From Actinacidiphila glaucinigra (GTDB taxonomy: Bacteria > Actinomycetota > Actinomycetes > Streptomycetales > Streptomycetaceae): a stretch of DNA of 64,000 nt. The stretch is taken from positions 1 through 64,000 of the forward strand of contig NZ_FZOF01000023.1 of NCBI RefSeq assembly GCF_900188405.1. The letters are read 5' to 3'. The notes under the pieces were generated by a model. That model was given only the letters and a program-made list of their open reading frames with translations, was not told where the DNA came from and searched no databases. This document shows, piece by piece, positions 14,118 through 54,623 of this stretch. Position numbers and translations under genes: made by a program. Each line of letters starts with the position of its first letter. Position 1 is the stretch's first letter.

Positions 14118-14145
14118 GGCGCTGCCTTCCTCTCGGCGCGGCGGT

Positions 14146-14467
14146 GGTGCCGCCCCCTTCCAGGCAACCACCGCCGGCCGTCCGCGGCGCCCCCGGGCGG
14201 GGGTCAGCGCAGCGCGCTCTTCTGCCGCCACTGGTCCCAGCCCACGTTCCAGTCGCCGAAGCCGTCGTTCGGCGCGACGGTGCCGAAGAACGCGGCGTTC
14301 CAGGGGGCGGCGTGCGCGTACATCCCGGACCAGGTGAGCCGGATCGAGTCGTGGACCGTCTCGTCGTAGGCGTCGCCGAGGCCGACGGTCTCGGAGTTCA
14401 TCCGGACCGTGCCCTCCTTGGCCAGCACCACCGCCGTGCCGCGCCACGAACCGGTGTCCGGTCCGGG
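14146..14467. repeat. tandem partial copy 1 of the transpeptidase 3' region (with 114-bp deletion)
   Basis: This 322-bp segment repeats the sequence starting at 14468 almost base for base, but lacks 114 bp (corresponding to 14604-14717, approximately). GGTGCCGCC occurs at 14146, 14468 and 14904, i.e. at both ends and at the junction, consistent with a tandem duplication by short-homology recombination. A few substitutions separate the copies. Confidence 0.85.
14204..14467 (-). pseudogene. L,D-transpeptidase C-terminal fragment lacking the catalytic Cys region
   Basis: In the transpeptidase frame this fragment encodes the end of the YkuD domain, but an in-frame 38-codon deletion joins FFG directly to TVAPN. 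The lost segment contains the SHGC active-site motif, so the fragment cannot be catalytically active. It also lacks the signal peptide and Ig-like domains. An internal ATG at 14431 (MVLAKEG) could start a 75-residue product, but no good ribosome binding site is seen. Asn has changed to Asp in PNDGF compared with the intact gene, showing some drift. Confidence 0.75.
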
Positions 14468-14903
14468 GGTGCCGCCCCCTTCCAGGCAACCACCGCCGGC
14501 CGTCCGCGGCGCCCCCGGGCGGGGGTCAGCGCAGCGCGCTCTTCTGCCGCCACTGGTCCCAGCCCACGTTCCAGTCGCCGAAGCCGTTGTTCGGCGCGAC
14601 CGTTCCCTTGGCCTCGGACCCCTTGATCTCGAAGGGATCGCCGACCCGGACCTGGGAGTACAGCCAGCCCGCGTCGGCGTCGCTCATCCCGACGCAGCCG
14701 TGGCTGCGGTTGGCCCGGCCGAAGAACGCGGCGTTCCAGGGGGCGGCGTGCGCGTACATCCCGGACCAGGTGAGCCGGATCGAGTCGTGGACCGTCTCGT
14801 CGTAGGCGTCGCCGAGGCCGACGGTCTCGGAGTTCATCCGGACCGTGCCCTCCTTGGCCAGCACCACCGCCGTGCCGCGCCACGAACCGGTGTCCGGTCC
14901 GGG
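14468..14903. repeat. tandem copy 2 (intact 3' part of the transpeptidase gene)
   Basis: This 436-bp unit comprises about 58 bp of intergenic DNA plus the 3' part of the intact L,D-transpeptidase gene. It matches copy 1 apart from the 114-bp deletion there. Confidence 0.85.
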
Positions 14904-15737
14904 GGTGCCGCCCGAGACGGGGACCGTGCGCACCGTCCGGCCGTCGCGCTGCAGGGTGAGCTGCTTGCGGTCGAGGTCGACCTTGACCACCTGCCGGGCG
15001 CCGACGGTGAAGGAGGCCTGGTAGTCGCGGACGAACCAGCCGCCCCGCCCGGAGTCGGTGCCGTCCAGGCGGGCGTCCAGGGTGACCTCGGTGCCCGGCC
15101 GCCAGTACTCCCGGGGCCGCCAGTCGACCCGGTCCCGGCCCGAGTAGTCGGTCAGCCAGCCCCAGGAGCCCTCGGTGTCGTCGGAGGTCGTCACCTTCAG
15201 CTGCCGCTCCACGGCGGCCTTGTCGGTCACGGGGTTGTCGAAGACGAGGGATATCGGCTGGGCGACGCCGACCGTGGTGCCGTCGCCGGGCCGCCAGTCC
15301 ACCTTGTTGACCTTGCGCGCCGCGGCGGTGGTGAAGCTCGACTCGCTCCTGCCGGTCGTGCCGCCCGGGGTGCGGGTACCGGCCTCGACGGTGTACGAGG
15401 CGCCGGGCACGACGTTGCGGTCCGAGGTCCAGGTGCGGCGGTCCGCGGACAGGGTGCCGGTCAGTGCCTTGTCGTGCGGCCCGGCGACGGTGACCGCCGT
15501 GAGGGTGCCGCCCTTCGCGGTGACGCGGACGGGCTCGCCGGCCGTTACCCGCCCGCCGTGCGGGGTGACGGTGACGGTCGCCGCCCGCTCCTTGTGCTGC
15601 TCCGTGTCGCCGGCGGCGTGCGTCGCCGCCGGGGCGCTGCCCGAGCAGGCGGTGAGCACGGCGGACAGCAGGGCGGCCGCGACGGCGGCGGTGCGCAGGC
15701 GGGGCCGGCGTATCGGGCCCACACGTTTCCGGGACAA
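14526..15737 (-). CDS. lipoprotein L,D-transpeptidase (Ig-like + YkuD)
   Basis: A 403-residue peptidoglycan cross-linking enzyme that makes 3-3 cross-links. The lipobox is VLTAC with Cys31. Two Ig-like domains (about 55-140 and 145-245) precede the YkuD catalytic domain (about 247-375), which has the SHGC motif with catalytic Cys348 and upstream MYAHAAPWN. The architecture matches LdtMt2-type enzymes. The start is TTG at 15737, supported by GGAGGT upstream. A deleted partial copy of its 3' end lies immediately downstream. Divergent FemX-like and MurJ genes place it in an envelope-building neighbourhood. Confidence 0.92.
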   Translation of the reverse strand: MSRKRVGPIRRPRLRTAAVAAALLSAVLTACSGSAPAATHAAGDTEQHKERAATVTVTPHGGRVTAGEPVRVTAKGGTLTAVTVAGPHDKALTGTLSADRRTWTSDRNVVPGASYTVEAGTRTPGGTTGRSESSFTTAAARKVNKVDWRPGDGTTVGVAQPISLVFDNPVTDKAAVERQLKVTTSDDTEGSWGWLTDYSGRDRVDWRPREYWRPGTEVTLDARLDGTDSGRGGWFVRDYQASFTVGARQVVKVDLDRKQLTLQRDGRTVRTVPVSGGTPGPDTGSWRGTAVVLAKEGTVRMNSETVGLGDAYDETVHDSIRLTWSGMYAHAAPWNAAFFGRANRSHGCVGMSDADAGWLYSQVRVGDPFEIKGSEAKGTVAPNNGFGDWNVGWDQWRQKSALR

Positions 15738-37589: not shown

Positions 37590-39284
37590 TTGCGCACCCG
37601 CCACCTCGCGGGCGGGACGGCTCTGTCCGTCCTGCTCGCCACCGCATCCCTGCTCGGGGTCACGGCAACGCCGGCCGCGGCCGACGCCGCCCCGTCGGCC
37701 ACCTCCTCCGAGGCGCAGCCCACGCTGCATGCCCTGGACGACCCGGCCCAGGCCGCGACCACGCTCACCGTGAACGTCCCCGCGACGGCCGTGCCCGGCG
37801 CCGAGGTCACGATCACCGGCACCCTCGGCTCGGCCGAGCCCTTCGCGGCCGGCACCGAGGTCACCGTCACCCGCACGGACCCGGCCGACACGGCCGGCAC
37901 CCCGCTGGGCACCGCGGCCGTCGCCGAGGACGGCACCTTCCAGCTCAAGGACACCCCGGCCGCCCAGGGCAACAACACCTACTGGGTCAGCTACGCCGGC
38001 GACGCGACCCACGCCGCCGCCGCCGCAACGGGCACCGTCACCGTCGCCCGGGCCTCGACCACCCTCAACGTGTCCGCCCCGGAGACGGCCCTGCCCGGCG
38101 CCGAGGTCACCATCAGCGGCTCCCTCGGCTCCACCGAGGACTACGCGCCGGGCACCACGGTCGCCATCACCCGCACGGACAGCCACGGAGGGACCGGCAC
38201 CCCGCTGGGTACCGCGACCATCGGCGAGCACAACATCTTCCAGCTCAAGGACACCCCCGCTGTCCAGGGCGACAACACCTACACGGTCAGCTACGCGGGC
38301 GACGCGACCCACACCGCCGCCACCGCCAAGAGGACCGTCAACGTCACCCGGGCCGCGACCACGCTCACCGTGAACGCCCCCGCCACCGCCAAGCGGGCCA
38401 CGAAGCTCACGGTCACCGGCAAGCTCACGGCCGCCGCGCCCTTCCCGGCCGGCACCAAGGTCACGGTGACCCGGATCGACCTCACCACCCCGAAGGGCAA
38501 GTCCCTCGGCACCAAGACGGTCGCCTCCAACGGGACGTTCAGCTTCACGGACACCCCGTACACGGGCGGCAACGTCACCTACTCCGTGCACTACTCGGGC
38601 GACGCGACGCACACCGCCGCCCTGGGCAAGGACACGGTCGCGGTCTCCCGGGCGGCCACCTCGGTCAGCATCAAGACGAACCACTCGACCTACTCCTGGG
38701 GTTCGACGGCCACCGTCACCGGCCACCTCGGCAAGACCGGCAAGAGCCGCGTGGTGTCGATCTACTCCAAGGCGGCGGACGGCACGAAGAAGCTGGTGAA
38801 GACCGGCACGGTCAACAGCTCCGGCGACTTCAAGGTGAGCTACAAGCTCTACCGGAACACCACCTTCTGGGCGTCGTTCGGCGGCGACTTCTACTCGGCG
38901 CCGAAGTCCGTGTCGCGCTCGGTCGGCACCCGGATCAAGGTCTCCACGTCCGTCGCGCGGCACTACAAGACGGGCAAGATCGGCTCGACCACGTACTACT
39001 GGTTCCACAAGAACACCGACCCGGTGTTCACCACGAGCATGAGCTACTACAAGAACCGCAAGCAGCGGTTCGAGCTGCAGGTCTACTACCAGGGCAAGTG
39101 GTACTCGGCCGGCAGCGAGTACTTCTGGCTCGCCACCAACGGGAAGTCGGCCGTGCAGCTCGAGGCCCCCGGTGAGTCCGGCATCCGCGCCCGCATGCGG
39201 TCCACGTACGTCAAGGGCTCCTCGGGCGACTCCGTGAACACCACGACCTACGGCCCCTGGAAGTACATGTACTTCACCAAGTGA
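37590..39284 (+). CDS. secreted Ig-like repeat protein
   Basis: A 564-residue exported protein. A signal peptide (about 1-33, ending ATPAAA) precedes four related beta-sandwich repeats at about 55-145, 147-245, 247-345 and 347-435. Each begins like ATTLTVNVPATAVPGAEVTI and ends like YWVSYAGDATH. The C-terminal part (about 440-564) is Tyr-, Trp- and Lys-rich (STTYYWFHKNTDP, LQVYYQGKWYSAGS) and probably binds a surface ligand or polymer. The TTG start has GGGGGGAA upstream. It is probably an adhesin-like or matrix protein. A 21-bp terminator hairpin follows. Confidence 0.82.
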   Translation: MRTRHLAGGTALSVLLATASLLGVTATPAAADAAPSATSSEAQPTLHALDDPAQAATTLTVNVPATAVPGAEVTITGTLGSAEPFAAGTEVTVTRTDPADTAGTPLGTAAVAEDGTFQLKDTPAAQGNNTYWVSYAGDATHAAAAATGTVTVARASTTLNVSAPETALPGAEVTISGSLGSTEDYAPGTTVAITRTDSHGGTGTPLGTATIGEHNIFQLKDTPAVQGDNTYTVSYAGDATHTAATAKRTVNVTRAATTLTVNAPATAKRATKLTVTGKLTAAAPFPAGTKVTVTRIDLTTPKGKSLGTKTVASNGTFSFTDTPYTGGNVTYSVHYSGDATHTAALGKDTVAVSRAATSVSIKTNHSTYSWGSTATVTGHLGKTGKSRVVSIYSKAADGTKKLVKTGTVNSSGDFKVSYKLYRNTTFWASFGGDFYSAPKSVSRSVGTRIKVSTSVARHYKTGKIGSTTYYWFHKNTDPVFTTSMSYYKNRKQRFELQVYYQGKWYSAGSEYFWLATNGKSAVQLEAPGESGIRARMRSTYVKGSSGDSVNTTTYGPWKYMYFTK

Positions 39285-52892: not shown

Positions 52893-53300
52893 ATGAGAGC
52901 CGCGGGAAGGTTCACCGTCACAGCGTTCGTGCCGACCGAGCTCGTGCCGGAGCCGGCCGTGACCACCGGGACGCCGGTCGGGGTCGCCACGATCGAGAAG
53001 ACCTTCGAGGGCGAGGTCACCGGCCGCTCGTCGACCCTCTTCACCGCCGCCTACGACCAGGCGAGCGGCACCGGCACGTATGTGGCGATGGAGTCCTTCG
53101 AGGGTGCGCTGAACGGCCGCGCGGGCACCTTCAACTTCGCCCACTCGGCGACGACTTCCGGCAGCGACCGGACCGCCGAGTTCTTCGTCGTCGTCCCCAC
53201 CAGCGGCACCGGCGAACTGTCCGGCATCACCGGCGCGGGCGGCCTCGCGATCGACGAGGACGGCACGCACCGGATCTGGTTCGACTACGACCTGGGTTGA
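52893..53300 (+). CDS. DUF3224 domain protein
   Basis: A 135-residue cytoplasmic beta-barrel protein of the DUF3224 family. It matches the family in VGVATIEKTFEGEVTGRSSTLFTAAYD, GTYVAMESFEGALNGRAGTFNFAHSAT and TGELSGITGAGGLAI. The fold resembles allene-oxide-cyclase-like barrels and the function is unknown. It sits inside the cobalamin cluster, but nothing shows it takes part. It is followed by a large inverted repeat. Confidence 0.88.
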   Translation: MRAAGRFTVTAFVPTELVPEPAVTTGTPVGVATIEKTFEGEVTGRSSTLFTAAYDQASGTGTYVAMESFEGALNGRAGTFNFAHSATTSGSDRTAEFFVVVPTSGTGELSGITGAGGLAIDEDGTHRIWFDYDLG

Positions 53301-53329
53301 AGGCTCTCGCGGCTGTCCCGCCGTCTCGC

Positions 53330-53821
53330 GCCCTGCGGGCGCAAGGACGCGGGCTGCGGACGGCGGGGTGAGGGTGTCGGGCCCGTCATCGCCGTGCGGA
53401 TGGGTGGTGGCCGGGGTTCGGGCTCCGGAGCGGGGTGCCGTTCCGTTGGCGCGGGTCTCGTCGCCGTCCGCGGGTATAGATGGCCGCTTCCACGCCCACC
53501 CATGATGGCTGGCGCGCCCGCCGTAACCGGCGTCTGCGGCTGATTCGGGGTGCTGTCGAGGGGCCTGCAGCGGAAGCAGGTCCGATCCTTGAGGGATGTG
53601 GGGGAATCACCCGCAGACGCGGGTTACGGCACGCGCGGCACCCACGAACGGTAGGCGCGGCAACCGGCCGTCTGCACCCGCGGACGGCGACGAGACCCAC
53701 GCCACCCGACACGCAGCCCGCTCCGGAGCCTGGACCCCCACCACCCACCCACCGGCGCGCCGCCGAGGCAGCCAGGCCCCGACTCTCCCGTCCGCAGCCC
53801 GCGTCTTTCCGCCCGGAGGAC
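53330..53821. repeat. large imperfect inverted repeat, about 240-bp arms
   Basis: The 552-bp gene-free gap between the DUF3224 gene and cobM is almost entirely one inverted repeat with a centre at 53575.5. Matching blocks fall in exact register about that centre: 53346-53362 with 53789-53805 (17 bp perfect), 53422-53473 with 53678-53729 (long near-perfect run around GCTCCGGAGC), and 53521-53546 with 53604-53630 (2 mismatches). The blocks between are diverged but keep their length. A small CCTGC/GCAGG hairpin lies near the tip. No credible protein is encoded. Confidence 0.88.
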
Positions 53822-53852
53822 GCAGGACGAACCCGCGCCGCGAGCGCGTGCC

Positions 53853-54623
53853 CTAGGAGGAGGCAGCGCAGTCCGTCGCGTGCCGGTGAACGCGCTCGGC
53901 GGAGTACAGGTGGCTGTCGCGGAACTGCTCCGCGCCCAGCGTGCGGCCGACCATGATGACCGCGGTACGGACCACACCGGCCGCCTTCACCTGGTCCGCG
54001 ATGTCCGCGAGCGTCCCGCGCAGCACCAGCTCGTCGGGGCGCGAGGCCATCGCCACGACGGCCGCCGGGCAGTCCGCCCCGTAGTGCGGGGTGAGTTCGG
54101 CCACGACGCGGTCGACGTAGCGGGCCGCCAGGTGCAGCACGATCAGCGCGCCGCTGCGGCCCAGCGTCGCCAGGTCCTCGCCCTCCGGCATGGGCGTGGC
54201 CTGCTGCGCGACCCGGGTGAGGATGACGGTCTGCCCGACGGTCGGCACCGTCAGCTCCCGCTTCAGGGCCGCCGCGGCCGCCGCGAACGCGGGGACGCCG
54301 GGCACGACCTCGTACGGGATTCCGGCCGCGTCGAGGCGGCGCATCTGCTCGGCGACGGCGCTGAACACGGACGGGTCGCCCGAGTGCAGCCGGGCGACGT
54401 CGTGGCCCTCCTCGTGGGCGCGGACCAGCTCCTCGGTGATCCGGTCGAGCGTGAGCTGCGCCGTGTCCACCAGCCGCGCGTCCGGCGGGCACTCGGCGAG
54501 CAGTTCGCGGGGGACGAGGCTCCCGGCGTACAGGCACACCTTGCTGGCCGCCAGGATCCGCAGGCCGCGCAGGGTGATCAGGTCGGCGGCACCGGGTCCG
54601 GCGCCGATGAAGTGGACGGTCAT
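53853..54623 (-). CDS. cobM: precorrin-4 C11-methyltransferase CobM
   Basis: A 256-residue SAM-dependent methyltransferase of the corrin ring. Motifs are VHFIGAGPGAADLITLRGLRIL, LYAGSLVPRELL, VARLHSGDPSVFSAVAEQMRRL and VVPGVPAFAAAAAALKRELTVP, all typical of CobM/CbiF. The ATG overlaps the cobL stop as ATGA, so it is the second gene of a cobL-cobM operon on the minus strand. It runs into the large inverted repeat downstream. Confidence 0.95.
   Translation of the reverse strand: MTVHFIGAGPGAADLITLRGLRILAASKVCLYAGSLVPRELLAECPPDARLVDTAQLTLDRITEELVRAHEEGHDVARLHSGDPSVFSAVAEQMRRLDAAGIPYEVVPGVPAFAAAAAALKRELTVPTVGQTVILTRVAQQATPMPEGEDLATLGRSGALIVLHLAARYVDRVVAELTPHYGADCPAAVVAMASRPDELVLRGTLADIADQVKAAGVVRTAVIMVGRTLGAEQFRDSHLYSAERVHRHATDCAASS

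Follow-up and report, generated by a model that had tools for sequence, protein, structure and literature searches.

The convergent genes for a DUF3224 protein and for CobM are separated by a long palindrome (Table 1). The window, here the whole 64-kb stretch of DNA that was analyzed, holds no other long palindrome that is non-coding. Open reading frames across the palindrome match no Pfam family. The sequence-only reading had described an inverted repeat at 53330-53821 whose halves keep a mirrored register and have diverged without indels. The repeat is confirmed and proves slightly longer, at 53322-53829, and the register holds over three ungapped block pairs: the outermost (53322-53374/53777-53829; 79% complementary) and the middle (53397-53489/53662-53754; 80%) share a position sum of 107151, and the innermost (53490-53546/53604-53660; 79%) has a sum of 107150. 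The absence of indels applies to these main blocks but not to the palindrome overall, as a gapped self-alignment gives 72% identity with 10 gap openings.

Table 1. Coordinates of the palindrome, its parts and its neighbors in the window, and of two members of the second palindrome family discussed in the text
Feature	Position	Strand	Basis or remark
Palindromic repeat, whole element core	53322..53829	.	Inverted-repeat search; folding of both strands
Arm 1, with conserved block GTCTCGTCGCCGTCCGCGGGT at 53455-53475	53322..53546	+	Inverted-repeat search and copy comparison
Central loop	53547..53603	.	Inverted-repeat search and copy comparison
Arm 2, inverted copy of arm 1	53604..53829	-	Inverted-repeat search and copy comparison
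Type A outer end (CGGCTGTCCCGCCGTC...)	53310..53327	+	Copy comparison
Type B outer end, truncated (reverse complement ...GCGGGTTCGTC)	53828..53839	-	Copy comparison
Small terminal hairpin GCGCCCTGCGGGCGC	53328..53342	+	Kept in most copies; no T-run after the hairpin
Left neighbor, DUF3224 gene (PF11528)	52893..53300	+	Pfam; stop codon 21 bases from the core
Right neighbor, cobM (tetrapyrrole methylase, PF00590)	53853..54623	-	Pfam; stop codon 23 bases after the core
TCGCGCAGTTCCCCGCGCCCCT-family example	L177:3751-3947		
TCGCGCAGTTCCCCGCGCCCCT-family example	L200:3751-4006		

Folded as RNA, an analysis that the sequence-only reading had called for, both strands are far more stable than shuffled sequences. 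The plus strand reaches a minimum free energy of -389.9 kcal/mol (z = -16.6) and the minus strand -398.1 kcal/mol (z = -19.4), and no shuffled sequence matched the fold of either strand. Folded as DNA, the palindrome has a z-score of -12.4. Repeats of other kinds occur elsewhere in the window. A tandem direct repeat with a unit of roughly 300 bp, 72-74% identical, lies at 37746-38667, and direct repeats of 143 and 196 bp, 97-100% identical, lie at 14142-14913, possibly as a repeated coding segment or an assembly-sensitive region.

The palindrome at 53322-53829 is one copy of a dispersed, diverged palindromic repeat family. A similarity search of its own genome, the search elsewhere that had been proposed, recovered at least 15 loci, and a 32-base core pattern allowing up to 3 mismatches gave 24 matches per strand and brought the family to at least 32 loci on many contigs; the reversed pattern, used as a control, has no match in the genome. 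At least 28 copies are full or nearly full palindromes, mostly of 510-630 bp, four loci (L061, L071, L073 and L075) hold half-elements, and an additional partial copy lies near 291.6 kb of contig C75. Among the 27 copies compared, identity between copies averages 77% and reaches 85% at most. Conserved blocks alternate with variable ones, a pattern that suggests some constraint, and the conservation profiles of the two arms correlate at 0.75; arm 1 can be distinguished from arm 2 in every copy. The outermost ∼20 bp are of two types, A (CCGGTGGTTCGGCTGTCCCGCC) and B (CCGGTGGGTGGGTGCGGGTTC), and many copies carry a type A end on one side and a type B end on the other. The center often holds a small GATCGGGC...GCCCGATC hairpin, repeated in some copies, which the central loop of the window copy lacks. 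Register in the other copies is often poorer than in this one. Beyond the element, the full copies share no flanking sequence and lie in unrelated gene gaps.

That the arms are two unrelated gene remnants is refuted by their homology, by the recurrence of the whole palindrome and by the lack of Pfam matches in its reading frames; taken more broadly, an origin from inverted remnants, chance or misassembly is scarcely credible, as at least 32 diverged copies are scattered over many contigs and the folding z-scores are -17 and -19. A separate 719-bp palindrome (76%) in the L089 region (G000:C75:91708-92426) was rejected as a non-coding hairpin element. It consists of two convergent, apparently coding copies of a gene, presumably for a small secreted protein of rodlin- or chaplin-like appearance.

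The copies have a pronounced preference for the 3' ends of genes. Convergent genes flank 17 of the 28 full copies, whereas convergent gaps make up 19-20% of an 800-kb background, counted by gene pairs or by intergenic bases, with genes delimited by a simple codon-model gene caller (P about 2e-6 for pairs and 1e-6 for bases). Nine others lie between genes of the same direction and two between divergent genes. The copies are a median of 38 bp from a gene 3' end, compared with 163 bp from a 5' end. A general preference of stable bacterial stem-loops for convergent gaps is described in PMC1590033.

The same sites were compared with those of a close relative, G001, whose cobM is 96% identical to that of the window. 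There the DUF3224 and cobM stop codons lie 18 bp apart, with no palindrome between them. Together with 22 further aligned sites, G001 lacks the element at 22 of 23 comparable positions; L076, whose site could not be placed, falls outside this count. The sole further site with an element, L060/L045, carries a half copy in G001. The part common to both species differs at many positions, and the coding flanks are >90% identical. This divergence resembles the spread between copies and is consistent with multiplication of the family around or after the split from G001. At the L041 site, two G001 genes apparently overlap at their stop codons. Not every site is cleanly empty: several hold a different long sequence in place of the element, which leaves the ancestral state in doubt at some of them. 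The suggestion that the palindrome is a relic of a palindromic element or a decayed mobile element was thus right in kind: it is a dispersed repeat, absent from the orthologous site of a close relative.

By the relatives of its cobM, the source genome falls within the Streptomycetaceae. Searches of the genus (35 genomes) and of the Streptomycetaceae (395) found relatives of the family outside the source genome in only two of the 395, G001 (two partial copies) and G044 (one); the family-wide search scored the best two candidates per genome, and weak copies may be missed. The exact core pattern has no match in the genome_contigs or viral_contigs collections, from which the source genome was possibly left out, nor does the palindrome match plasmid or phage sequences or any structured RNA family in Rfam. 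Text and sequence searches of open papers returned no description of it, although a published name may exist in subscription papers, which lay outside their scope. The family is new and lineage-specific, and its general kind, the dispersed extragenic palindrome, is already known; its length is unusual and its 3'-end preference striking.

The inference that a retained register reflects selection on structure is for the most part not upheld. When every aligned column is counted, the two arms of one copy have an identity of 0.721, and arm 1 of one copy matches arm 2 of another at 0.714 (permutation P 0.03, or 0.08-0.09 with G-U pairs allowed). Since the arms of one copy are hardly more alike than arms taken across copies, most mismatches were inherited from the founder, and the hairpin survives largely through conservation of the sequence as such. 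A covariation test over all columns detects next to no co-evolution, and restriction to paired columns reveals a small excess. In the 216 columns with a pairing consensus among 27 copies there are 117 matched double changes against 95.5 ± 9.1 expected (P 0.01), and borrowing arm 2 from near relatives lowers this to 95-104. The 146-pair RNAalifold consensus contains 21 pairs with double changes, where shuffles give 11.2 ± 2.2, although the structure comes from the same alignment and the shuffles ignore relatedness. The excess in paired columns lends weak support, rather than none, to selection on the hairpin. The proposed search for compensatory changes thus yields a signal of ambiguous origin, as both compensatory selection and arm-to-arm conversion predict a small copy-specific excess. 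G-U-type and A-C-type discordances are equal, at 268 each, which gives no support for pairing at the RNA level.

Considered together, the dispersed family, the empty site in a relative, the 3'-end location and the shared outer ends and core argue for a mobile repeat. We consider it probable that the palindrome is a copy of a lineage-specific, non-coding and non-autonomous fold-back (MITE-like) repeat, inserted or tolerated behind genes. Like MITEs, it is a short non-coding inverted-repeat element in many dispersed copies, with empty orthologous sites at the G001 positions described above. Ends shared with an autonomous transposon were not found, every end-motif match in the genome being a family locus, and no transposase gene in the genome is bounded by element ends; the parent transposon may have diverged or been lost. 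No target-site duplication is consistent across copies, the one 8-bp candidate (CCCGGCGG) occurring at L070 only, in a search by shared words that was swamped by G+C-rich chance words and for which the G001 gaps are too diverged. The variable ends, types A and B, are not typical of a precise transposon and count against a mobile element, as do the block-wise conservation and the G001 sites with other long sequence noted above. In the model that we favor, an element with two similar inverted arms would have proliferated as this lineage diverged from the closest relative compared, or later, moved by a transposase acting in trans or by another DNA-copying process acting on hairpins. Copies would have survived mainly behind stop codons, through a preference of the machinery or the loss of insertions in genes and promoters, and arms and copies would then have drifted, leaving arm-arm mismatches that are mostly family-wide. 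A convergent transcript that passed its stop codon would enter ∼230 nt of self-complementary RNA, and it is likely, though not proven, that the element acts incidentally as a transcript-end structure in both directions.

The four half-elements have a different organization. Each is fused to a fragment of the galactokinase gene (galK) within another dispersed inverted repeat, forming composite repeats (L061:1950-3155, L071, L073 and L075) of a half-element and some 170 bp from the 3' part of the galK coding sequence. The outer inverted repeat contains CTCCCCCAGCCTTCGGCCGGGGGGACCCCCA and is also present at G001 sites. The galK piece is ∼98% identical between L061 and L071, that of L061 is likewise ∼98% identical to the real gene, and a full copy of the element (L062) lies just behind the real galK. 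Such rearranged half-copies imply activity in recombination or transposition, and they indicate that recombination also had a part in the history of the family. An account that replaces transposition by homologous recombination or gene conversion among dispersed repeats as the means of spread would draw on this shared galK fragment within a second repeat, on the L075 site of G001, which has the outer repeat without the half-element, and on the lack of a target duplication. We nevertheless find it improbable for the family at large, as the full copies lie in unrelated gaps without shared flanks, so that recombination among repeats already in place cannot have seeded them.

A further alternative is that the palindrome is a functional two-way 3'-end element of convergent genes, kept by selection as a terminator, mRNA stabilizer or RNase III target, by whatever route it originally spread. 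The strong bias to gene 3' ends and convergent gaps would suit such a role, but insertion tolerance behind genes explains the position equally well. The very stable fold of both strands and the excess of matched double changes, in both tests, point the same way; against them stand arms that barely co-vary over all columns and the equality of the two kinds of discordance. An unrelated palindrome fills this cobM gap in two further species, yet G001 lacks the element at nearly all sites and its genes are intact. The intrinsic-terminator pattern of a stem-loop followed by a T-run was not found in the element, although terminators of streptomycetes may do without one. Position and fold make a role at transcript ends plausible, and the location of the copies fits, rather than proves, an RNA-level effect; the terminator, insulator and dsRNA roles suggested in the sequence-only reading are candidates of this kind. 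As the reason for the palindrome's maintenance we judge such a function unlikely, and favor the mobile repeat.

The palindrome downstream of cobM in those two species, Streptomyces sp. MNU76 and S. stelliscabiei, is about 200-260 bp long and belongs to a second family, with the core TCGCGCAGTTCCCCGCGCCCCT, which has 88 and 97 matches in the respective genomes. Exact matches to its 22-base core are present in 163 of 298 Streptomycetaceae genomes, at most about 276 in a single genome, and absent from the source genome (G000), G001 and G044. Convergent genes flank 7 of the 20 copies examined, and the distance to 3' ends has a median of 21 bp. No published name for this family was found in open papers, subscription papers being outside the scope of the search. 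The presence of two unrelated palindrome families in the same cobM gap of different species fits a shared site preference or tolerance. A bolder proposal, which we regard as speculative and unlikely, is that streptomycetes repeatedly recruit unrelated long palindromes as two-way transcript-end barriers between convergent genes. The present element would then be one lineage's own version, in a genome without the TCGCGCAGTTCCCCGCGCCCCT family, with effects at dozens of gene pairs on termination, on the suppression of antisense RNA or on RNase III cleavage.

It is unusual to find half-kilobase palindromes dispersed at gene 3' ends, and the natural insertions, at least 28 in number and many of them matched by an element-free site in a relative, provide material on how hairpins spread and on their effects on neighboring transcripts. 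The family resembles bacterial MITEs and fold-back elements in being non-coding and dispersed, with inverted arms, lineage-specific multiplication and intergenic insertion. It differs in that nearly the whole half-kilobase is palindromic, in its two alternative end types, and in that neither a target duplication nor a parent transposase has been found. REP/REPIN elements, extragenic palindromes linked to RAYT transposases, share its preference for convergent and same-direction gaps behind genes (PMC3733652). However, REPs measure 20-40 bp, whereas the present elements span about 510-630 bp with arms of about 225 bp and do not have the REP/REPIN unit, and they number dozens rather than hundreds. 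A REP/RAYT link found no support, the two Y1 transposase genes of the genome having no copy of the element nearby. The TCGCGCAGTTCCCCGCGCCCCT family offers a further parallel: its members, too, are long, imperfect palindromes scattered next to gene 3' ends, and in two species one of them lies in the cobM gap. This second family is unrelated in sequence, shorter (about 180-260 bp where examined) and far more widespread, and through it the present family points to a much larger family of Streptomycetaceae palindromes with hundreds of core matches per genome.
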